A DNA stretch of 38,926 bases from a virus. This document shows, one piece after another, positions 2,539-38,558 of this stretch (the first letter of the stretch is position 1; the number at the start of each line of letters is the position of its first letter). The notes beneath the pieces are model-generated. The model was given only the letters and a program-made list of their open reading frames with translations, searched no databases and was not told the DNA's origin. The position numbers were made by a program, and so were the translations under genes. Location: IMG/VR virus record IMGVR_UViG_3300033145_003411, positions 1 to 38,926 of that record. One strand, written 5' to 3'.

Positions 2539-5061
2539 ATGCAAGGGTTAGTAAAAAAAGTTTTTGACCATGTTCTTGATGAGATTGGACCTCAGATTGT
2601 AGAGTTGTCTGAAAATTCTGATAATCGTTATTGGGAGAGATTTTTAAAAGCTATTGGCCCTGGCATGAGAAGTATGGAGTATCAGCTTAAGAGAGAATTT
2701 AGGAGGCAAGAAGCTGAAATTATTCGTGGCATAAGGAAACCATCAAAAACTTATAAGGCTAATCCTGTTTTTCCTGTAAAACCTTTGACTTTGGAACAGA
2801 TTTATCAATTTAATACCGAAAGGGCTAAGACTTTAACTCAGCTTGCTACAAAACCTGGTTATGGGAATTGTGCTGTTAAGGCTGGTAAAGAGAGTTTAAG
2901 GAAGTTAGGTATTGATGTTGATTTCAATTTACAATTACCAGAAGTAGGAGAATTTGTTGATGAATGGACCTTAAAACTTGCCGGCGAGGTGACTGGCTCA
3001 ACGGTTGATAATATAAAGAAAACTTTACGAAAAGGGATTATGGAAGGCGAGTCTTATCAACTGTTGACCGAAAGAGTAAAGAAGGCTTTTAAGACTTCGC
3101 CTGTTAGGGCCAATATGATTGCTCAGACTGAAGCCGTTAGAGCCGGTAACGGCGGTCAAATATTAGCTTGGGAAAAAACAGACGGCGCAATCTCAATGAA
3201 ACGCTGGTGGACAAGTAGAGACGAAAGGGTCTGTCCGTTTTGTCTAAGGATGCACGGGAAGGAAATTTCATTAAGAGATAATTTTGCTAATCTTGGTGGC
3301 AGTGTCGATGGTCTGACTTCTGAGGGTAAACCTGTTTCGATGTTGGTAAGTTATTCTGATGTTGGTTTTCCACCGCTTCATATTCGTTGCCGTTGTGTTT
3401 TAATTGGCGTTCCGAGGGGGGAAGAAAGTCTAAGGCCAGTCGTTGAAGAGCCTATGGCTGAGAAACCTAAGCCGAAGCCTAAGAAACCAAAACGGCGCCC
3501 TATAAAAGATATTCCAAATAATAGCAAAGGGGCGTCTGAGTTTGGAAAGAGGCTAAAAGATACTGATATTTCACCAGGAGGTTCAACTGGCGCAAAGATA
3601 TTTAAAGATAATGAAGGTTTTGATTGGGTAGTAAAATCTTATCCAGACGAAAGGCAGATTTTCTCTGAATGGATTTCTAATAATCTTTATAAACGTGCTG
3701 GTATAGATGTTCCAGAAACAAGGCTCGCTTTAATAGATAAAAAATATAGGGTGGCTACTAAATGGCTTGATGATGCAAGACCATTAGATATTTCTTCTTT
3801 AAAGGGTATTAATAAATCGTTTAAAGATGGGTTTGCAATGGATTCTTGGTTAGCTAATTGGGATGTTATTGGTTTAACTGGTGATAATGTAGTCAAAAGC
3901 GGAAGCAAATTTTTTAGAGTTGACCAGGGCGGGTCTTTGTTTTTTAGAGCGCAAGGCGGGCTAAAGGGTGATTTATTTGGATCGGTAGTTAAAGAGCTAG
4001 AGACTATGAGGTCGAAGGTATCTAGCCGCACTTCTGGTATGGTTTTTGGAGATTTAACAGATACCTTTGTTAAACATCAGATTAAAAAAACCGTTTTGAA
4101 ATTTACTGATGATGATTTAGCCTCTCTGATTATTGATTCTGGCCTTAGAGAAGTTAATCGTGAATATGCAGATGATTTACTTAAAAAATTGATTAGTAGA
4201 AAAAAATATTTAGAAGAGTTTACAAAACCTCCCTCTTCTAGCCTATCTTCTATTTTTAAGGATGCAACTCACCAAAAAGTTTTCGATGATTATTATGAAT
4301 CTTTTGCGAAGGAACTTTCTTTATTAAAAACCAAGGAAAGTAAGAAAGAATTTGTAAAAAATGTTTTTTCTACTGATACCGATCTTGAGCTTATTAAAAA
4401 TAGTATTGATACATGGAAGCATGATGCTCAGGCTATAAACCCTTTAAGGCTTAAACTTTTAGCCGTGGAGCTTGAGAATAAAATATCTGACCTTTCTGTT
4501 GCGCTTTCCTCGGAAGTGGATTTTATATATGAACATGAGTTGGTTAAAACCCTTACTTCGAAAAATATTAAGGGGTATATAAAATCGAGAGCATTAAATC
4601 AGGCTTATATACGGAATATGACAAAAAAAGATTCGATTACTTTGTATAGAGGCGTTGGAGGGAGCAGGGGGGAAGCCAAGAGGCAAGCTTTAACTTATTT
4701 ATCAAAAGGGGCCAAGGTTGATATTTCGTCTAATTGTTTGTCTGGGTACTCAAGTTCAGAACTCGTTGCTACTGATTTTGGGAAGGTGATTTACACTAAG
4801 AATGTAAGAGTTGGGGACATTATTTTTGATGAGGATATTATAAATATTTTATCGAGGGATTTTCATAAGGATGAAAAAGAATTTATTATCAAAGGGCTTT
4901 CAAACGAAGTGGGGGAGTTGGGTAAGGATATAAAAGCTATTAAAGTAGTTGACGATATTCCTTCACATGGTGTTGATCCTTTCGACCCTGATGAGATACT
5001 TCCAGATTGGGAACCGGCAGACGGGGGGATTTTTGGGCCGGACCCATTTGCTGATGACTAA
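2539..5061 (+). CDS. Minor head protein: gpF-like domain fused to kinase-like and ADP-ribosyltransferase-like domains
   Basis: An 840-residue three-part protein. Residues 1-290 are a Mu gpF/SPP1 gp7-type head morphogenesis region, with AQTEAVRAGN near 195, CPFC at 232-235 and HIRCRC at 281-286. A Pro/Lys-rich linker spans about 303-322. Residues 345-495 look like a HipA/PI-kinase-type fold: VVKSY with Lys366, SEW with Glu377, NWDVIGLTGDN with Asp442/Asp449/Asn450, and RVDQGG with Asp462. Residues 660-805 carry R-S-E ADP-ribosyltransferase signatures: LYRGVGG with Arg704, SGYSSS at 735-740 and DEKEF with Glu779 and Glu781. The tail is acidic and Pro-rich. Minor head proteins of this class sit inside or at the portal vertex, so the C-terminal domains could enter the host with the DNA, as T4 Alt does. 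The ribosome site is weak. The kinase-like assignment is the least certain part. Confidence 0.85.
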   Translation: MQGLVKKVFDHVLDEIGPQIVELSENSDNRYWERFLKAIGPGMRSMEYQLKREFRRQEAEIIRGIRKPSKTYKANPVFPVKPLTLEQIYQFNTERAKTLTQLATKPGYGNCAVKAGKESLRKLGIDVDFNLQLPEVGEFVDEWTLKLAGEVTGSTVDNIKKTLRKGIMEGESYQLLTERVKKAFKTSPVRANMIAQTEAVRAGNGGQILAWEKTDGAISMKRWWTSRDERVCPFCLRMHGKEISLRDNFANLGGSVDGLTSEGKPVSMLVSYSDVGFPPLHIRCRCVLIGVPRGEESLRPVVEEPMAEKPKPKPKKPKRRPIKDIPNNSKGASEFGKRLKDTDISPGGSTGAKIFKDNEGFDWVVKSYPDERQIFSEWISNNLYKRAGIDVPETRLALIDKKYRVATKWLDDARPLDISSLKGINKSFKDGFAMDSWLANWDVIGLTGDNVVKSGSKFFRVDQGGSLFFRAQGGLKGDLFGSVVKELETMRSKVSSRTSGMVFGDLTDTFVKHQIKKTVLKFTDDDLASLIIDSGLREVNREYADDLLKKLISRKKYLEEFTKPPSSSLSSIFKDATHQKVFDDYYESFAKELSLLKTKESKKEFVKNVFSTDTDLELIKNSIDTWKHDAQAINPLRLKLLAVELENKISDLSVALSSEVDFIYEHELVKTLTSKNIKGYIKSRALNQAYIRNMTKKDSITLYRGVGGSRGEAKRQALTYLSKGAKVDISSNCLSGYSSSELVATDFGKVIYTKNVRVGDIIFDEDIINILSRDFHKDEKEFIIKGLSNEVGELGKDIKAIKVVDDIPSHGVDPFDPDEILPDWEPADGGIFGPDPFADD

Positions 5062-5073
5062 GGGGGAATAAAT

Positions 5074-5283
5074 ATGCTGAAAAAGAAAAAAATTAAAGGA
5101 AAAATAAAAGTTGAAGGTATGCGCCGAGGTCCAAATGGGGTTTGGGTGTTTCGCGATTCATGTGAAGCCGAAGATAGTTGGCTTCAGCATACTAGAGCAT
5201 TGAAGGCTAATAAAAAGCGCAAGGCAAAAGAGATGGAAGATAATAGCATGTATGTTTATGTCGATAAAATCGGCGTTTTTTAA
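5074..5283 (+). CDS. Small basic hypothetical protein
   Basis: A 69-residue ORF starting 12 bases after the minor head gene with AGGGGGAA as ribosome site. The N-terminus and middle are very lysine/arginine-rich (MLKKKKIKGKIK; KANKKRKAKEME). No domain is recognised. Its position and spacing suggest it is the last gene of the operon before the promoter-bearing gap that follows. Confidence 0.58.
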   Translation: MLKKKKIKGKIKVEGMRRGPNGVWVFRDSCEAEDSWLQHTRALKANKKRKAKEMEDNSMYVYVDKIGVF

Positions 5284-5782: not shown

Positions 5783-7504
5783 ATGAAAATAGATAAAGCA
5801 GATGAATTTTTAAATAAGTATGGGCTTGGCAAAGATAGCGTTATTAGTATCAAAGCTGTAAACGATTTTGATGTTGGTGAAGTAGATAAAGAGAAACGAA
5901 CAATCATTACTACTATTACAACTGCTGGTATTGATAGAAGTGGAGATATTGTTCGGCCTGACGGCGTTTCTTTAAAGAATTATCGAAAGAATCCTGTCGT
6001 GCTTTGGATGCATGGTAGCGGGGGGATGTTTTCGAGCGGTACTCCTGAACTTCCTATTGGTAAGAATTTATGGATTAAGCCAAACAACAAAGGTTTGGTT
6101 GCCAAGACTCAGTATGCTAATCACGAGTTAGCTGATAAAGTTTTTGAATTTAGGCAATCGGGATTTCCACTTGCTCAGTCAATTGGCTTTATGATCCAAG
6201 AAAGTATATCAAAGAATAAAGATGGCAAAAAAAACACAAAGTTTAATAACCAGCTAAAAGATTTAGTTGATAAGGAATGGCTTGAAGATAAGAATGTTGA
6301 TAAGGTTGATCGGATAATTACCAAATGGGAACTCCTCGAATATTCAGACGTTATCGTCCCGGCTAATCCTGAGGCTTTAGGTAGGGCCGTTGAACTGGAA
6401 ATAATTAAGTCAGATTTTCCAGACTTGTATAAAGAATCACAAGATAATGAAATGCTTATGTATAAGACTATGTTTCCTGATATGGAAATAAAAGACATAG
6501 TTGTTGTAGAGGGCAAAGAAGAAGAAGTAGTAGAGGGAAAGGAAACTAAAGATAATGAAAAAGAAAATATTACTATTTCTATTGTTTCTGAAAAAGATAT
6601 TTCAGAAGATAAGGCTTTAACGCACAATTCTAAGACTTCTGATACAGAGCCTGTTTGGGGGGATTTGGACAAGACTAAATTGCCGCAAAAAGCCTTTGCC
6701 GATGAGGGAGAGCCTGATAAGAAATCTACTTGGAAGTATCCCCACCATTGGGTAAAAAATGGGGGTAAGTTAGATGACAGTGGGATTTTTACAACTGGAG
6801 ATATGTTTTTACACAAGGGGGGACTAAATGCTGCTTGGGCTGCTGCACAAGGCGCAAGAACTGGTAAACCAGCTTCGGCGTCAATAATAGCTCATCTTTC
6901 AAAACACCGAAAAGATTTAGGATTGAAAGACGCTGAAGAGATAATCGAAAAGGAAATTTTAGCCTCTGAAATAGTTTCAGAAGCTATGCTGGCTTCAATG
7001 GAAGCTTGTTTGGCTGGAATGGAAATTGTTCAAGAAGAAATGAAAACTTTGTCTTATAGATTGGATGCTATTGAAAATGTTGAACTGTTGGAGGGAGAAT
7101 CGCAAAAAACTGAAATATCAGATAAAGACGATACTAATAAAACAGCACCTCTTATTACTGAACGATTTCTAGAAGAAAATTTCGATGAACTACTTGATAA
7201 AACTGGAGTATTAGATACTTTGAGCACATTAAGTGAAAGTATTGAACATCTGAGTTTTGATATACAAGCCTTGAAAGAGGACAAAGAAAAAGAAGATGAC
7301 ATTGTAACAGTTGTTGAAACTGAAAAAGACAAAGATAAAATGTCATTTGAGCAGGCTTTAGAAATAATGAAAGCGGCTAAGGAACTTGCGATGGTGGCCA
7401 TAAAGCCTGCAAGGGATCAAGGAGAGAAAGAAGGATATAAACAAGGTATTGAGAAGGCTGCCCTTGAGTTGGCGAAGGTCAGAGGGAAAACAGTTTTTGA
7501 ATAA
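5783..7504 (+). CDS. HK97-type prohead protease with long C-terminal (scaffold-like) region
   Basis: A 573-residue protein. Residues 35-205 match the S78 prohead protease family: TAGIDRSGDIVRPDG at 48-61, WMHGS with catalytic His77, AQSIGF with Ser133, and the EYSDVIVPANPEA block with Glu186. These enzymes cleave the capsid delta domain and scaffold during maturation. Usual family length is about 200-250 residues, so this one is more than twice as long. An acidic linker (235-290) leads to a second module at 291-385 (KLPQKAFA, WKYPHHWV and SIIAHLSKH), a motif set seen in other phage protease/scaffold fusions. The last 180 residues are acidic helices likely to act as scaffold and be removed. 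The ribosome site is GGGAAGAG. Confidence 0.86.
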   Translation: MKIDKADEFLNKYGLGKDSVISIKAVNDFDVGEVDKEKRTIITTITTAGIDRSGDIVRPDGVSLKNYRKNPVVLWMHGSGGMFSSGTPELPIGKNLWIKPNNKGLVAKTQYANHELADKVFEFRQSGFPLAQSIGFMIQESISKNKDGKKNTKFNNQLKDLVDKEWLEDKNVDKVDRIITKWELLEYSDVIVPANPEALGRAVELEIIKSDFPDLYKESQDNEMLMYKTMFPDMEIKDIVVVEGKEEEVVEGKETKDNEKENITISIVSEKDISEDKALTHNSKTSDTEPVWGDLDKTKLPQKAFADEGEPDKKSTWKYPHHWVKNGGKLDDSGIFTTGDMFLHKGGLNAAWAAAQGARTGKPASASIIAHLSKHRKDLGLKDAEEIIEKEILASEIVSEAMLASMEACLAGMEIVQEEMKTLSYRLDAIENVELLEGESQKTEISDKDDTNKTAPLITERFLEENFDELLDKTGVLDTLSTLSESIEHLSFDIQALKEDKEKEDDIVTVVETEKDKDKMSFEQALEIMKAAKELAMVAIKPARDQGEKEGYKQGIEKAALELAKVRGKTVFE

Positions 7505-7506
7505 TT

Positions 7507-7645
7507 GCTTGGAGGTTGCATATAAAAGCAACTAGAGCGATATAGTTTATCATAGCCTGGAGGCTAATTAGATTAGTCAGGGCATTATCAAAAAAGGAGA
7601 ATGGATATAGACCGACCTGGAGATTAAAATAGAATAATCAGGGTC
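7507..7645 (+). promoter_or_regulatory. Three tandem bulged hairpins in the major capsid gene leader
   Basis: The 182-base gap before the capsid gene contains three similar elements, each a short outer stem, a TGGA(G) bulge on the 5' side, and a 5-bp inner stem. Element 1 (7507-7538): outer GCT/AGC, inner GTTGC (7515-7519) with GCAAC (7528-7532). Element 2 (7555-7583): outer GCC/GGC, inner CTAAT (7564-7568) with ATTAG (7572-7576). Element 3 (7614-7645): outer GACC/GGTC, inner GATTA (7622-7626) with TAATC (7635-7639). The stem sequences differ but pairing is kept, while the TGGA bulge is constant, which is internal covariation. This suggests an RNA-binding protein site or an mRNA stability element. 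The capsid ribosome site (AGAGAGG, about 7674-7680) is outside them. Confidence 0.55.
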
Positions 7646-7686
7646 TCATGGCAAGGAAATAAAAAGGATTATAGAGAGGTAATAAT

Positions 7687-8934
7687 ATGCCTGAGATCAG
7701 TGTTGAAGATTTGAAAGAAATGGTCGTTAGTGCTGTTGTTGAGGGAGTTAAAGAAACACAAGGTGAAGACCTTACTCGACAAGAAATGGATGACCATTTT
7801 AAGACTATGATGGAGGAACTTCAAAATCCCGAAACTGATGTAAAACCTAAATTTACTGGTGGGGATATTGATAGCGAAGATAATGTTATTGATGAGACCA
7901 AAGATTTTAAGACCTTTGGAGAACAGCTTCAGGCCATTGTTAAAGCCGGGTCCGGGAATAAGGAAATTGATCCAAGACTCGTTATTGAAAAGGCCACTGG
8001 ATTAGGAGAAAATATTCCTTCTGAGGGCGGATTTCTTGTCCAGCCTGAATTTGCTGCCGAGTTGATTAAAAGACTTTATGAAAATGGGCAAGTCGCTTCA
8101 CGTTGTAGGTCTTTGCCTATTTCGTCTAATAGGATTATTCTTAAAGCGGTTGATGAAACGAGTAGGGCTGACGGTTCCAGACATGGTGGTGTAAGGGCTT
8201 ACTGGAAAGATGAAGCCGTTGCTGGAACAGCTTCTAAACCTAAGTTTCGTGAAATGACTTTATCTCTTAAAAAGTTGATTGGTATTTGTTATGCGACCGA
8301 GGAACTTGTAGAAGACGCTGTTGCTTTAGAGGGCCTTGTAAGAGACGATTTTGCGGAGGAGTTTGCCTTTAAGATTGATGATGGAATTATAAACGGGACC
8401 GGCGCTGGACAGCCATTTGGCATTTTAAATTCTGCTTGTTTAGTTTCGCAGGCGGCTGAGACTTCCCAGGCTGCTGATACTGTTAAAGCGGCCAATGTTA
8501 TTAAAATGAGATCAAGAGCCTGGTCAAGAGGTCGTGGAAATTCCGTTTGGTGGATCAATCAGAATATCGAACCTCAACTTCATCAAATGACTCTTGCTGT
8601 TGGAACTGGTGGAGTCCCGGTGTATCTGCCCGCTTCTGGTCTTAGTGGAAGTCCTTATGATACGCTTTATGGGCGTCCGGTTATTCCTATCGAACAATGT
8701 CCGACTCTTGGTGATGTTGGCGATATTATTTTTGCCGATATGAGCCAGTATCTTTTGGCTACTAAGTCTGGCGGGAAGCTAAAATCTTCATCTTCAGTTC
8801 ATTTGAAGTTCTTGGAAGACGAGACTATTTTTAAATTTACTTATCGTGTCGATGGTCAACCGACTTGGAACAGTGCTTTGACTCCTTACAAGGGATCTAC
8901 TCTGTCACCGTTTGTCGCTTTGGCGGCTCGTTAA
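7687..8934 (+). CDS. Major capsid protein (HK97 fold)
   Basis: A 415-residue protein typical of the HK97 major capsid family. The first ~100 residues are acidic and helical (delta domain/scaffold, expected to be cleaved by the upstream protease). They are followed by SEGGFLVQPEFAAELIKR, the N-arm/E-loop region, LKKLIGICYATEELVEDA, the EFAFKIDDGIINGTG block and GQPFGILNS, then P- and A-domain sequence ending in a basic terminus. It assembles the icosahedral shell. The gene follows the protease after a structured leader, the standard order in this phage class. Confidence 0.95.
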   Translation: MPEISVEDLKEMVVSAVVEGVKETQGEDLTRQEMDDHFKTMMEELQNPETDVKPKFTGGDIDSEDNVIDETKDFKTFGEQLQAIVKAGSGNKEIDPRLVIEKATGLGENIPSEGGFLVQPEFAAELIKRLYENGQVASRCRSLPISSNRIILKAVDETSRADGSRHGGVRAYWKDEAVAGTASKPKFREMTLSLKKLIGICYATEELVEDAVALEGLVRDDFAEEFAFKIDDGIINGTGAGQPFGILNSACLVSQAAETSQAADTVKAANVIKMRSRAWSRGRGNSVWWINQNIEPQLHQMTLAVGTGGVPVYLPASGLSGSPYDTLYGRPVIPIEQCPTLGDVGDIIFADMSQYLLATKSGGKLKSSSSVHLKFLEDETIFKFTYRVDGQPTWNSALTPYKGSTLSPFVALAAR

Positions 8935-8953
8935 GGATAGGAGGTAAAATATT

Positions 8954-9436
8954 ATGGGAACTTATGGAATAAATATTGCGGAAGAAGCTCATTTTGTAAA
9001 TCTGTATCCTCCCAAAAGCCTTAATGGTGGCGGGAGTTCAGATGTTTTTAGCATGGAAAATTATGGACATGCTACGATTGTTATTCAGCTTGGTGCTACG
9101 GTCGGAGCGACTGTTGGGGTCCAGGTAGAAGAGTGCGATGACTTCACCCCAACTACACATCCTGGGATTGCCGGTTGGGAATACTATCTTGAGACCACGG
9201 ACTCAGGAGATACCCCGGCGGCTGGTGTAACGAGCTCCTCGACTGTTGGTTTGAGTTTAGCCGCGTCAACCAATTCGTTTGTTATAATCGAGCTGGACGG
9301 GACTTTACTTTCAGACGGTTATGAAAATGTTAGAATCACTATTCGTGATCCTGCCGCTGCTACAATCGGAGCGGCTTTTGCGATTCTTTCTGGCAGTCGT
9401 TATGGGCAAGCACAAACGCCGACTGCTATTGTTTAG
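8954..9436 (+). CDS. Putative head-associated beta-rich protein (decoration candidate)
   Basis: A 160-residue protein directly after the capsid gene with a GATAGGAGG ribosome site. It is rich in Gly, Ala, Thr and Val with alternating hydrophobic strands and no membrane segment or Cys motif. The end reads AILSGSRYGQAQTPTAIV, a pattern recalled from proteins encoded next to capsid genes in several phages. The position suggests a capsid-binding or decoration protein, but no biochemical role is shown by sequence. Confidence 0.65.
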   Translation: MGTYGINIAEEAHFVNLYPPKSLNGGGSSDVFSMENYGHATIVIQLGATVGATVGVQVEECDDFTPTTHPGIAGWEYYLETTDSGDTPAAGVTSSSTVGLSLAASTNSFVIIELDGTLLSDGYENVRITIRDPAAATIGAAFAILSGSRYGQAQTPTAIV

Positions 9437-9885: not shown

Positions 9886-10293
9886 ATGGGCGTAGAAAAT
9901 ATAACTGCCACCTGGGTATCAGGAGATTTATATTTCCATCGTGTTGATACCATGGCTACTATCTGCTGCATAACAGATGATCATGGATCAAATATTAATT
10001 TAGGTTTAGGTGTTCAAGGAATTGCAGCCGGGTATAAAATTGCCCGTGGTAATGCTTCTTTAACTGGGGATGCTACGATCGTTACTGGATTGACCGCAGT
10101 TGTAGATTTCTCTTTAGCTATAAGGAATGAGGCTGGAAACGCAACTTCAGCGAATTATTGCACGGTTGCAAACGGATTCCCTTCGTCTGGAAGTCTATTG
10201 GTTTATAGATGGATGCCTACAAGTGCAAGCACAACAACTCTTATTGCTTCCACAACTAAGGGGACTTTGGATTGGATTGTGGTTGGAACATAG
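9886..10293 (+). CDS. Paralogue 1 of a tandem pair, putative virion surface protein
   Basis: A 135-residue protein that aligns along its whole length, with no length difference, to the next gene product. Both begin MGVENI and share WVSGDLYFHR, DTMAT, GSN, NLGL, VQG, AAGYK, ARGNA and VTGLTAVVDF, and end in DWI-x-x-GT. The composition (Gly, Ala, Thr, Val; beta-strand-like) suits a virion surface or decoration protein. The ribosome site AAGAGGAAA precedes the ATG. No family name is recognised. Confidence 0.7.
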   Translation: MGVENITATWVSGDLYFHRVDTMATICCITDDHGSNINLGLGVQGIAAGYKIARGNASLTGDATIVTGLTAVVDFSLAIRNEAGNATSANYCTVANGFPSSGSLLVYRWMPTSASTTTLIASTTKGTLDWIVVGT

Positions 10294-10325: not shown

Positions 10326-10733
10326 ATGGGTGTAGAAAATATTTCAGGCTCATGGGTATCGGGCGACTTATATTTCCATAGAACTGATACTATGGCAACG
10401 ATTGTTAAGATAACAGACGACTATGGATCAAATGTTAATCTTGGCCTTGTTGTGCAAGGAGTTGCGGCTGGGTATAAACTGGCAAGAGGTAATGCAACAT
10501 TTACGGCGAATGCTACGGTTGTCACAGGTTTAACAGCGGTTGTTGATTTTGTTTTAGGCCAAAGAAATCAAAAGGCCGATGCTGATACTGCTAATAATTG
10601 TTGTGTTTATAATGGTTCTATTTCAGGAGGAAGTTTAATACTCCGCCGGTATGCCGCTTCAAGTGCTACAAGAACTGTAGTGGTTGATGCGACTACTGCT
10701 GGAACTATTGATTGGATAGCTATTGGAACTTAA
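10326..10733 (+). CDS. Paralogue 2 of a tandem pair, putative virion surface protein
   Basis: A 135-residue protein and clear tandem duplicate of the previous gene, separated by 32 bases that contain a strong GGAGGGCGGAGAAGGAG ribosome region. The first 75 residues are highly similar between copies. The region around residues 80-120 has diverged (QRNQKADADTANNCC here), which would fit variable surface loops on a shared beta scaffold. It lies just upstream of a glycosyltransferase gene, so it is a candidate glycosylation target, by inference only. Confidence 0.7.
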   Translation: MGVENISGSWVSGDLYFHRTDTMATIVKITDDYGSNVNLGLVVQGVAAGYKLARGNATFTANATVVTGLTAVVDFVLGQRNQKADADTANNCCVYNGSISGGSLILRRYAASSATRTVVVDATTAGTIDWIAIGT

Positions 10734-10760: not shown

Positions 10761-11801
10761 TTGAAGAAAGGATTAAGAATTGCTTCGGTTGCACATCACG
10801 GATGTATTCGTGTGCTTAAACAAGCGATTGCTTTACAGAAACAAGGGCATAAAGTTTTTTTAATCTCAGAGCAAGTCCCGTATGGTTATACGAGATTTGA
10901 TATGACAGCAGTTTATAAAGGACCGGAAAATTTGAAATCAGTTTTAAACAATTTAGATTTTGATCTTATTCATGTTCATAATGAACCTGATTGGATGGTC
11001 CCGATTTGTAAAGAGGTTGCTAATGGGAAGCCTGTTATCTATGATATACATGACCTTGAACATTTACGCTGGCTGTCTATTGCACAAAAGCCGGGAGAAG
11101 ATGAGACAAAAGCATTTGAGGCGGCAGACGCTTTAGTTCATGTTAGTAAATCTTGTAAATTTGCTGCTGAAAGATACCACGGTGACAGTAAACCAAATAT
11201 TGTTTTATACAGTTTTGAGAATGAAGAATTTTTAGCCAGGGACATAGATTTAGATTTTACTCCAAATTGGAAATCTCTTTGTTATGAAGGTGGACTTGAT
11301 ACTAAAGCCCCTGTTCAAAAAGAAGATGGGCGAGCAACAATTAATTTGAGAAATTTAGTCCCGATTGCTAAAGCATTTAGAGAGCAGAATTACATGGTTC
11401 ATTTTTATTCTGCAAATCCTCTAAGTGATAGAGCTTATGAAATGCTTGGTTGTTATGTTGCCGCTCCGGTTATCTATACAGCTATGCTTCAAGGGTTGAG
11501 ACCTCATGGACTTGGGTTTGTAGGAGGGGCTTTATCTACTGCTTTATTGGAATTTTGTATGCCTAATAAACTTTTTGAGTATATGAGTCAAGGCGTAACG
11601 CCGGTAAGTTTATTTGCAAGTGAAGTTGGTATTTTTTTGAAAGAGTATGATTGTGGTATTGCTTTAGATGGATTACAAGATTTGGACAGACAACTAGAAG
11701 ATTTACCAAAGAAAAGAAAAAATGTTTTGACGGTTAGGAAAGAACTTACAATGGAAAAACAAATTCACAAGTTGGAGGATTTGTATCAAGAGGTGCTATA
11801 A
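10761..11801 (+). CDS. Glycosyltransferase, GT-B fold, family-4-like
   Basis: A 346-residue protein. The start is TTG at 10761, preceded by AAAAGGAGAA 7 bases upstream. The N-terminal Rossmann-like half has LRIASVAHHGCIRVLKQA, ALQKQGHKVFLIS, FDLIHVHNEPDWM and VIYDIHDLEHLRW. The C-terminal half has the nucleotide-sugar binding signature MPNKLFEYMSQGVTPVSL near residue 270. These are typical of group-1/GT4 glycosyltransferases, which transfer a sugar from an activated nucleotide donor. Its position inside the head-tail operon suggests late expression and a virion or envelope target. Donor and acceptor cannot be read from the sequence. The stop overlaps the next ATG (TAATG). Confidence 0.86.
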   Translation: MKKGLRIASVAHHGCIRVLKQAIALQKQGHKVFLISEQVPYGYTRFDMTAVYKGPENLKSVLNNLDFDLIHVHNEPDWMVPICKEVANGKPVIYDIHDLEHLRWLSIAQKPGEDETKAFEAADALVHVSKSCKFAAERYHGDSKPNIVLYSFENEEFLARDIDLDFTPNWKSLCYEGGLDTKAPVQKEDGRATINLRNLVPIAKAFREQNYMVHFYSANPLSDRAYEMLGCYVAAPVIYTAMLQGLRPHGLGFVGGALSTALLEFCMPNKLFEYMSQGVTPVSLFASEVGIFLKEYDCGIALDGLQDLDRQLEDLPKKRKNVLTVRKELTMEKQIHKLEDLYQEVL

Positions 11802-35084: not shown

Positions 35085-38000
35085 TTACCCACAATTAGAC
35101 CAGCCACACGAAAGGCATTTAGAGCAACCTTCCTCTAAGACAACGCTATAATTTTTACATTCTGCACAAATAGTTCCAACCCCTTCTTTCTGAAATTCAA
35201 CATCAGAATAATTTTTTTCAAGTATTTTAGCTACAGCATCAGGAACAGAATAAACAGGAAAGCCATAATTCCAAACCACTCCATTTCCTCTGATATTCTT
35301 TAATTGTTTGATTATTTCAACTACATCAATTCCAGAACGCAAAGCAAGAGAAATTAATCTTGCTATCGCTTCGCCATCGGCTGATTCATCTGCTCCTGAT
35401 TTACCTGTAATCAAGAATACATCAAAAGGTTTTTTAATATCGTTTTCGTCTTTTACCTCTCCTATGGCAATATATAAATGGCCTTTATTCGTTCTGATTT
35501 TTTCTATAATAGCTTCTGTCCTACTTGGTCTTTCAACCGGAGACCTTTTAGATACTTGAGCCTCAACCTCCCTTGAGCCCTCTCTATACATTGTAACTGA
35601 CTTGCATCCTGATTGATAAGCCTTATGAAACGTATCACTTATTTCTTTTTTTGTAATATTTTTTGGTAAATTTATTGTCTTAGATATTCCCGAATGGATG
35701 TATTTTTGAAGTGTTGATAACATTTTTATATGCTGTTCTGGTTTTATGTCTTTCGCACATGCAAAATATTCTGGAACCTTTTTACCCGGATGTTCATTTA
35801 CCCACTTTTCATACAATGGATGTTTTATTGTAATCGTTTCTTCTATACATTTCTTTTCAAACTCGAATGAAAATACAGGTTCACATCCACTTGAACAATT
35901 TGCTATTAGGCTTATTGAACCAGTAGGAGCTATTGTAGTTAGTAAACCATTTCTCCTTGTCATTCCAATTGAGACTAACTTTTCCGGTATACCTTTTTCT
36001 TTCCCTAGTTTTTCACTTGCCTCGTTTGCATAGTCGCTTAGAGCTTTCATTATCTTTTCAGATATTTCAATAGCCTCTTTACTCCTGTAATCTATCTCTA
36101 ATTTAATCAAAGTATCAGCAAGGCCCATAATTCCGAGTCCTATTCTTCTTGTCTTTTTAGCCTCTATTTCAAATTGACTTGTTGGATAAGTCGTAACATC
36201 AATAACATCATCAAGAAATCTAACTGAATAACCAACAATTTTTTCTAATGACTGAAAATCAAATTCTTTATTTTTAACAAACTTTGATAAATTTATTGAG
36301 CCAAGCACGCAACTGCCATTAGATGGCAACGGCTGTTCGCCACACTGGGCACACAGTATATTATTGTGCTTAGGTTTTTTAGACTTAGTCTCATCTTCAT
36401 TTACCATTATATAAAAATTATGATTACCATCAACAGTCCCATTATAAACATCTTCATACCCATCTTCTTCAACCGAAACAACAACAAAATTTAACTCAGA
36501 GGCTTGTTGTAAATCTTTGTACGAAGTAAAGCAATATTTATTAAACCCTGATTCATTTGAACAACGTATTCTATAATGGACGCTACTCTTTTTGCATGAA
36601 GATTCCCATTCTTTTCTTAGTGGGTTCCTTTTAAGATTTTTTCTAAGTATATTATAAATATACATTTGATTAATCCTAGTTTCCCGTTGCCTATTTTCAA
36701 GATACGAATAAAATTTATTTCTATTACCCTCATCTGAACGTCCATAATCGTTTGAACATTTCCAAGAACAAAACGAACGCTCTCTATTCCGCCATTTAGT
36801 TATAAAGGGATCTCCACACCACTCACATATTTTATTTACATAAATACAACCACTATCAAAAAATATATCCATATCTGTTTCTTTTATTAATTCTAAAAAT
36901 CTTTTGTATTCTCTAATATGGGAAGAATGTTCTAAAGCAATAACCCCTGCTTTTTTAGCCGCTGCTAACAACATCTTACTCGAACAAGTATAATCACCGA
37001 GAGAATATGAGCTAGAAGGCAAGCCGCTCGATAAACAATAATCATGCCATTCGTCCTTAGTAACTCGCCTACCCAATTCCTTAGAATACTTAATAGCTTG
37101 ATTAAAAACATGGTCTGGAGTAACCCCTTTGTATCTACCATTATTACACCCAGAATGGTCCTGTTTTATTAACCAATTTTTTTCAGGAAATCTATTCATA
37201 GGATTATTATCACCAAACATATTTAATGAATGTAATTTATCGTGATCTTCCTTAGTCATAACAATTAAATTATCAAAAGTATTATCTAACCCATTATAAT
37301 TATCATGATGAACAACCTCGTCAAATTTTAATTTGCGGCCAAGTTTAAACTCAGCCAATATCCTATGTTCTGATATGGTCTGCGAAAAGCCTGTATTAAT
37401 CCATTTATAATCCTGTGATTTAGAATTAGAATGGTTAAGTATTTCTTTAAAAGAAGCGTTGTATGAAATCATGTGATGCAATCTATCACCACTAACTAAC
37501 TCATCGGCTCTCTTTATACTGCCTCCCTTTGTATAAAACTTATGATTTTCAGTACAACGAACAATAGAGCCATCATCTAAAGTAACTTTAAGAATTTTCT
37601 TATTTTTACCAGTAAGGCGTGGTCTACGCATCATTTGAACTTCAACCTTCTGTATTTTTTTATTAAAACAAAACACAGGTATATCTTTATTTTCTTCAGC
37701 CAAAGTTTTAATATCAACATATTGTCTACCATCAGCTACGTAAACCATTGAGTTACCAACAATACAAGGGTTACATGATTCAATAGTTTCTATCTCTTTT
37801 AATTCACTACGTTTATTGATTTGATCAATAAAAATAACCGAAGGTTCGCCGGAGTTCCACGTCCCTGAAACTATCTCATCCCAAAGAGCATTCGGATTAA
37901 TAGTTTCTACTTCATTTCCTTTCCATGTCAAAGAGAAAGGTTCTCCAAGTTCTAATTTATTCATAAATTTATCTGTTATAGCAACACTTAAATTAAAATT

Positions 38001-38558
38001 AGATAAACGGCCTTCTTTGTTTTTTGATCTGACAAATTCAAATATGTCTGGATGGTCACAACGTAATGTTGCCATATTAGCACCGCGCCTAACACCTCCT
38101 TGTTTCATCTGACCTGTAGCAACATCGAAAATCTTTAGAAAAGAAACTGGTCCGCTTGCTACGCCGTTTGTATGCTTTACTTCTGATCCTTTTGGCCTGA
38201 GTGATGAAAATGAAAATCCAGTGCCTCCGCCTTCTTTATGAATAAGAACTGCTGTTTTTAAGGAATCAAAGATTCCTTTTATGCTATCGTCTATTCCAAT
38301 AACGAAACAAGCAAGTAATTGTCTTGTTGGTTTTTTGCCTGCATTTATAAGACATGGTGTATTAGGTAAAAATTTCAATTCATTCATCATTCTATAAAAT
38401 CTTTTTTCCCATTTATTCTTTGCCTCTTCTGATATTTCAGCAGAAGCAATAGAATTAGCAACACGATGTAGCATATCTTCTGGAGATTCTTTATCTCCTT
38501 TGCTTGTAATCAAATAACGAAACTCTAATATCTCTTTTGCATTCTCAGTCAAATTCAT
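35085..38558 (-). CDS. nrdJ: Adenosylcobalamin-dependent (class II) ribonucleotide reductase containing an intein
   Basis: A 1157-residue precursor. After removal of the 474-residue intein (265-738) the mature enzyme would be 683 residues. Features are LLACFVIG with redox Cys84, HKEGGGTGFSFSSLRPKGS at 107-125, ANMATLRCDHPDIFEF, the split finger loop NP/CGEQPLPSNGSCVLGS with radical Cys739 and redox Cys750, APTGSISLIANCSSGCEP, and a C-terminal Cys-rich tail (CAECK, GCSKCLSCGWSNCG) typical of NrdJ. It reduces ribonucleotides to deoxyribonucleotides in either oxygen state, with B12 cofactor from the host. RBS AAAAGGA precedes ATG. It is encoded 2 bases after the acyltransferase gene. Confidence 0.93.
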   Translation of the reverse strand: MNLTENAKEILEFRYLITSKGDKESPEDMLHRVANSIASAEISEEAKNKWEKRFYRMMNELKFLPNTPCLINAGKKPTRQLLACFVIGIDDSIKGIFDSLKTAVLIHKEGGGTGFSFSSLRPKGSEVKHTNGVASGPVSFLKIFDVATGQMKQGGVRRGANMATLRCDHPDIFEFVRSKNKEGRLSNFNLSVAITDKFMNKLELGEPFSLTWKGNEVETINPNALWDEIVSGTWNSGEPSVIFIDQINKRSELKEIETIESCNPCIVGNSMVYVADGRQYVDIKTLAEENKDIPVFCFNKKIQKVEVQMMRRPRLTGKNKKILKVTLDDGSIVRCTENHKFYTKGGSIKRADELVSGDRLHHMISYNASFKEILNHSNSKSQDYKWINTGFSQTISEHRILAEFKLGRKLKFDEVVHHDNYNGLDNTFDNLIVMTKEDHDKLHSLNMFGDNNPMNRFPEKNWLIKQDHSGCNNGRYKGVTPDHVFNQAIKYSKELGRRVTKDEWHDYCLSSGLPSSSYSLGDYTCSSKMLLAAAKKAGVIALEHSSHIREYKRFLELIKETDMDIFFDSGCIYVNKICEWCGDPFITKWRNRERSFCSWKCSNDYGRSDEGNRNKFYSYLENRQRETRINQMYIYNILRKNLKRNPLRKEWESSCKKSSVHYRIRCSNESGFNKYCFTSYKDLQQASELNFVVVSVEEDGYEDVYNGTVDGNHNFYIMVNEDETKSKKPKHNNILCAQCGEQPLPSNGSCVLGSINLSKFVKNKEFDFQSLEKIVGYSVRFLDDVIDVTTYPTSQFEIEAKKTRRIGLGIMGLADTLIKLEIDYRSKEAIEISEKIMKALSDYANEASEKLGKEKGIPEKLVSIGMTRRNGLLTTIAPTGSISLIANCSSGCEPVFSFEFEKKCIEETITIKHPLYEKWVNEHPGKKVPEYFACAKDIKPEQHIKMLSTLQKYIHSGISKTINLPKNITKKEISDTFHKAYQSGCKSVTMYREGSREVEAQVSKRSPVERPSRTEAIIEKIRTNKGHLYIAIGEVKDENDIKKPFDVFLITGKSGADESADGEAIARLISLALRSGIDVVEIIKQLKNIRGNGVVWNYGFPVYSVPDAVAKILEKNYSDVEFQKEGVGTICAECKNYSVVLEEGCSKCLSCGWSNCG
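36345..37766 (-). mobile_element. Intein with HNH homing endonuclease in NrdJ
   Basis: Splicing block A begins with Cys265 (CIVGNSMVYVADG). Block B has GSIVRCTENHKFYT with Thr336 and His339. The endonuclease region has SEHRILAEFKLGRKL, EVVHHDN with His417/418, GLDNTFDNLIVMT and DHDKLHSL (an HNH_3-like site) at 395-445. A four-Cys zinc motif CEWC...CSWKC lies at 578-601, and blocks F/G are VDGNHNFYI and NNILCAQ. The intein ends in Gln738 rather than the usual Asn, with Ala before it rather than His, and the +1 residue is Cys739. The NPC-GEQ insertion site is a known hot spot in reductases. Confidence 0.88.

Follow-up and report, generated by a model that had tools for sequence, protein, structure and literature searches.

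Do three tandem hairpins ahead of the major capsid gene of an uncultured tailed phage form a selected RNA structure, and, if so, what might read them? To our knowledge, the post-transcriptional matching of capsid supply to demand in tailed phages has been little studied, and we found nothing on point in the literature concerning conserved RNA ahead of capsid genes. The sequence analysed here (hereafter the window) is the whole of a 38,926-base virus record, which represents part of the genome of such a phage. The record begins at base 1 inside a portal-like gene, of which only the 3' end is present, and the head gene cluster includes genes for a trypsin-like protease (982-1818) and a Mu-F-like/ADP-ribosyltransferase-like protein (2539-5061), with tail genes downstream of the major capsid gene.

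The array is located in a 182-base untranslated leader (7505..7686, plus strand), which runs from the upstream stop to the capsid start and separates the last two head genes. The upstream gene (5783..7504, plus strand; stop codon at 7502-7504) encodes a protein of 573 aa with a prohead-protease-like N-terminal part, whose match to Peptidase_S78 fell just under the cut-off, and a further domain conserved in other phages. The downstream gene (7687..8934, plus strand; ATG at 7687) encodes 415 aa, and the matches of its product to phrog_10 (E 1.9e-42) and phrog_617 (E 9.6e-24) agree with its designation as the major capsid gene in an earlier note on this DNA. The likely ribosome-binding site of the capsid gene, AGAGAGG (7673..7679, plus strand, placed by inspection), lies nearly 30 bases 3' of hairpin 3 and outside its enclosure.

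Three hairpins with a common internal loop

Hairpin 1 (7504..7541, plus strand), whose first base is the final base of the upstream stop codon, consists of an outer stem of seven pairs (ATTGCTT/GAGCGAT), an unpaired GGA opposite A, an inner stem of six pairs (GGTTGC/GCAACT) and the terminal loop ATATAAAA. The same GGA opposite A interrupts hairpin 2 (7555..7583, plus strand), between the outer stem GCCT/GGGC and an inner stem of seven pairs (GGCTAAT/ATTAGTC) closed by the loop TAG, and hairpin 3 (7614..7645, plus strand), between the outer stem GACCT/GGGTC and the inner stem GATTA/TAATC, which is closed by the loop AAATAGAA. The terminal loops measure 8, 3 and 8 bases, stem lengths differ between copies, and the gaps between successive hairpins are 13 and 30 bases. 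All the stems named in the earlier note, i.e. inner GTTGC/GCAAC, CTAAT/ATTAG and GATTA/TAATC and outer GCT/AGC, GCC/GGC and GACC/GGTC, were found where it had placed them.

The three hairpins share the core 5'-C-Y-U-[GGA]-G ... Y-[A]-G-R-G-3', a 3x1 internal loop in which GGA stands opposite A, adjoining a constant U.G pair. In each copy the last base of the 5' arm is U, and next come the unpaired GGA (7511-7513, 7559-7561 and 7619-7621) and an inner stem that opens with G; the 3' arm carries a single unpaired A facing the GGA (7534, 7579 and 7640) and then G-R-G, the constant U pairing with the G after that A. The GGA triplets occur in the contexts CUUGGAGG, CCUGGAGG and CCUGGAGA, each in an internal loop. 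The constant "TGGA bulge" described previously is indeed the same in all three copies, but its T pairs with G, and the unpaired part is GGA opposite A.

Partition function analysis of the full leader gave probabilities of 0.6-1.0 for the inner stems and of 0.5-0.8 for the outer stems of hairpins 1 and 3, with merely 0.36-0.37 for the outer pairs of hairpin 2. Six wobbles are present, three in hairpin 1, two in hairpin 2 and one in hairpin 3, all of them G.U on the sense strand, and no A.C counterpart occurs among the pairs of the three hairpins. This distribution fits selection on the sense RNA, albeit weakly, since three of the six wobbles are the constant U.G. A short reading frame (MDIDRPGD, 7601-7627) behind AAGGAG enters hairpin 3, with a spacing to the ATG that seems too short for a good start.

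The hairpins could not be assigned to a known RNA family. No match in the window reached the Rfam 15 gathering score, and at E up to 5 the region 7440-7720 gave just three matches, each below threshold and on the opposite strand. In a kink-turn, a bulge of three bases precedes tandem sheared G.A and A.G pairs, so that each strand contains GA; here the opposite strand after the inner stem, read by eye, is 5'-AG-3' and not GA. Intrinsic terminators, with a GC-rich stem and T-run, were also considered and rejected: no terminator-like site was found on the sense strand within 6800-9000, nor over the final 150 bases of the leader.

Tests of the repetition and the leaders of capsid relatives

Compared with shuffled sequences, the single hairpins are of moderate stability (z -5.1, -2.2 and -1.8 for hairpins 1 to 3), and the fold of the whole leader is only modestly better (z -1.5), thus stability alone is no proof of an array. 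The alignment of the three copies is more telling. Standard pairs occupy 29 of its 30 cells, and 6 of the 10 aligned pairs have changed on both sides between copies, in line with the covarying stems reported by the earlier note. When the 3' letters were dealt at random, the observed both-side changes were matched in 2 of 500 deals, and sliding the partner by 1-3 columns reduced pairing to 23-50%. Even with any bulge sequence and several geometries permitted, none of 3000 dinucleotide-shuffled leaders contained three hairpins with a loop in common, and just one contained two.

Across about 3.6 Mb of phage strands, this leader alone carries an array of three with unlike stems, the other arrays being either chance pairs or DNA duplications whose stems are identical or almost so. 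The strict motif occurs seven times in 3.62 Mb of strands, three of these in this leader, and no second array was found in the 38.9-kb record. A covariance model scored the three hairpins at 44.3, 43.7 and 47.9 bits, respectively, with the next best site in the window at 12 bits. As the structure was read off, and the model built from, the same three sequences, these figures show improbable repetition, not independent between-phage covariation. Taken with the shuffles and the survey of phage strands, they bear out the earlier proposal of a selected RNA structure: the evidence that the three hairpins form one, around an unchanging recognition loop, is good, if internal to one genome.

The relatives examined comprised 13 found by capsid sequence, 20 by protease, 80 by capsid profile and one bacterial genome, in which one capsid relative was located. 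No three-hairpin array was present in any of these capsid or protease relatives. The earlier note had named homologous leaders as the place to look for the hairpins, and by its own standard this absence weakens the generality of the array. Capsid relatives in viral contigs reach 62% identity at most (best matched segment), too distant for their leaders to be aligned. Neither the tail-tube protein nor the Mu-F-like head protein, used as query, gave any relatives. Since four window proteins as queries gave no close relative in the collections searched, this phage appears isolated there. BLAST of the leader against phage records produced chance matches only, and a DNA pattern for tandem CCTGGAG...CAGGG cores gave, among the matches listed, none that passed the paired-hairpin test.

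Of the 64 capsid loci examined, 15 have a terminator-like stem with a T-run no more than 150 bases 5' of the capsid start; the window is among the 64 and not among the 15. By inspection, four relatives (L002, L003, L005 and L101) have a promoter-like sequence and then a structured stretch before the capsid gene. In L003 (3176-3392) and L005 (3723-3923) the promoter-like sequence is accompanied by two YTYGACGAG-type segments in hairpin context and a stem with T-run before the capsid start; these leaders possibly contain a different RNA array, of two copies, at the corresponding position. In L002 (2848-3078) and L101 (1729-1879) a promoter-like sequence, a short transcript and a strong terminator directly 5' of the capsid gene resemble a small RNA gene or attenuator. 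The TTGGAG that occurs in terminator-like stems of L077 and L109 is completely paired there and has no relation to the array. As some relatives place promoter-like sequences, hairpin pairs or terminators just before the capsid gene, this junction may serve more generally for control.

Possible roles of the array

The stems vary yet still pair, whereas the loop and the bases that close it are constant; the part contacted by a protein is therefore most likely the loop. We propose that the array acts in cis on capsid expression, offering a protein identical docking sites in the leader of the capsid mRNA, a reading which in our judgement has an even chance of being correct; it includes protein binding, the identity of the binder and the direction of control, all of which we infer. 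The GGA/A internal loop beside the U.G pair would be the recognition element, present in three copies in the leader of the capsid message, on which one protein may dock three times, cooperatively or additively, at intervals of about 50-60 bases. Docking would alter the translation or the lifetime of the capsid message, and capsid supply would thereby be matched to need, for example through feedback by a phage head protein or a switch operated by a small phage RNA-binding protein. The first base of hairpin 1 lies in the upstream stop codon, and a ribosome terminating there would therefore melt this hairpin, which could couple the upstream and capsid genes. On the other side of the array, the capsid ribosome-binding site is not enclosed and lies nearly 30 bases past hairpin 3, thus simple occlusion by this hairpin is not obvious, and a protein would have to be large or multimeric to repress by covering the site directly.

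The fixed core with covarying stems, its position directly ahead of the capsid gene and the lack of any other such array in the record support docking sites; against them count the presence of three copies only, in one genome, with no homologous leader found, and the low probability (0.37) of the outer stem of hairpin 2 in the full leader. A binding array for a capsid-regulating protein, one of the roles put forward previously, is thus retained as the most economical reading, with no binding protein identified. No known RNA-binding domain was recognised among the window proteins scanned, and as the record is a genome fragment, the putative binder gene may be missing from it. A 69-residue protein of no family (5074-5283), with a pI of 9.9 and 26% K+R, is a mere candidate.

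The nearest working analogy, and an analogy only, would be with MS2, an RNA phage in which translation of the replicase gene is governed by an operator, the 19-nt TR hairpin, and which uses multiple dispersed stem-loops (PMC4751978). The likeness lies in a short interrupted hairpin in a phage message, in MS2 read by a phage protein; the difference is that the putative element here, a GGA/A internal loop, lies in the leader of a capsid gene and belongs to a tailed DNA phage. As far as searched, the array is new as an element, of a general kind that is already known. In a fuller proposal, which is tentative and somewhat doubtful, a tailed dsDNA phage would control its major capsid protein by a triple RNA operator, recognised either by one of the phage's head proteins or by a small RNA-binding protein of the phage that would be new; if a phage protein does read the array, the two would constitute a new RNA-protein recognition pair. 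The triple identical loop also offers a handle, in that a short bait RNA would have a clean negative control with the loop closed and the stems kept.

Several other roles could be envisaged for such a leader. The hairpins might serve translation or stability without any specific protein, shielding the untranslated 182-base stretch from RNases or Rho, or offering GGAG as a ribosome standby site. The leader of T7 gene 10 carries a stabilising hairpin and a processing site and is likewise the structured leader of a capsid message, but here one loop is present in three copies. The array precedes a gene needed in high amounts and its loop strand, UGGAG, is akin to a ribosome-binding site; however, the final G of GGAG is paired in the fold, and a stabiliser requires neither a constant internal loop nor the opposite A or U.G pair in three copies, which leaves such an element with a rather small chance and argues against the pure mRNA stabiliser of the earlier note. 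An antitermination role is unlikely. The put RNA of phage HK022, which would be the second analogy, consists of two adjacent hairpins near early promoters and needs no phage protein to act in cis on RNA polymerase; like it or lambda nut, the hairpins here might modify the polymerase, directly or via a phage protein, and so permit late read-through of the head and tail genes. The array shares with put RNA its tandem hairpins with unpaired purines, and the stems with T-runs before the capsid gene in 15 of the 64 loci suggest that read-through here may matter in the group, but it consists of three hairpins spaced 13 and 30 bases apart rather than two, lies in mid-operon rather than early, and has no terminator-like site on the sense strand of 6800-9000.

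The number of GGA triplets in the leader, 7 against 3.1 expected from the density in the window, with three kept unpaired, recalls target leaders of host CsrA/RsmA, which have several GGA-bearing hairpins per leader. The CsrA consensus is RUACARGGAUGU, in which ACA and GGA are invariant and GGA lies in the loop of a hairpin (PMC4347634). Here, by contrast, GGA follows CYU without a preceding ACA and occupies an internal, not a terminal, loop, and no CsrA was found among the phage proteins scanned, leaving such sites improbable. Inverted repeats would fold as DNA too, and a recombinase or replication protein could recognise them as hairpins extruded from single-stranded DNA, or a DNA-binding regulator as operator palindromes; yet the inner stems are too unlike for a common DNA operator, the wobble pairs are on the sense strand only, and a position between head genes of a tailed phage would be an unusual site for attachment or replication, thus a DNA-level element is quite improbable. 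That the RNA forms part of the virion or of a packaging motor, like phi29 pRNA, is the most improbable by far: the array does lie inside the head gene cluster, but no promoter/terminator unit surrounds the hairpins, Rfam gave no match, three separate small hairpins are unlike the pRNA fold, and beyond its location nothing supports the virion component that had also been suggested.

Other features of the record

Several further genes of the record deserve mention. The trypsin-like protease gene lies within the head gene cluster in addition to the prohead-protease-like gene. The 840-aa head protein encoded at 2539-5061 combines a Mu-F-like domain with a C-terminal stretch that resembles dinitrogenase reductase ADP-ribosyltransferase just under the Pfam cut-off, and may be an ejected enzyme. 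After the capsid gene, two tandem paralogous proteins of 135 aa with no assigned function are encoded at 9886-10293 and 10326-10733, and 3' of this pair lies the gene for a 346-aa protein (10761-11801) that looks glycosyltransferase-like by eye. At 35085-38558, a ribonucleotide reductase (barrel domain and TSCPD) is split by an intein with an HNH endonuclease.
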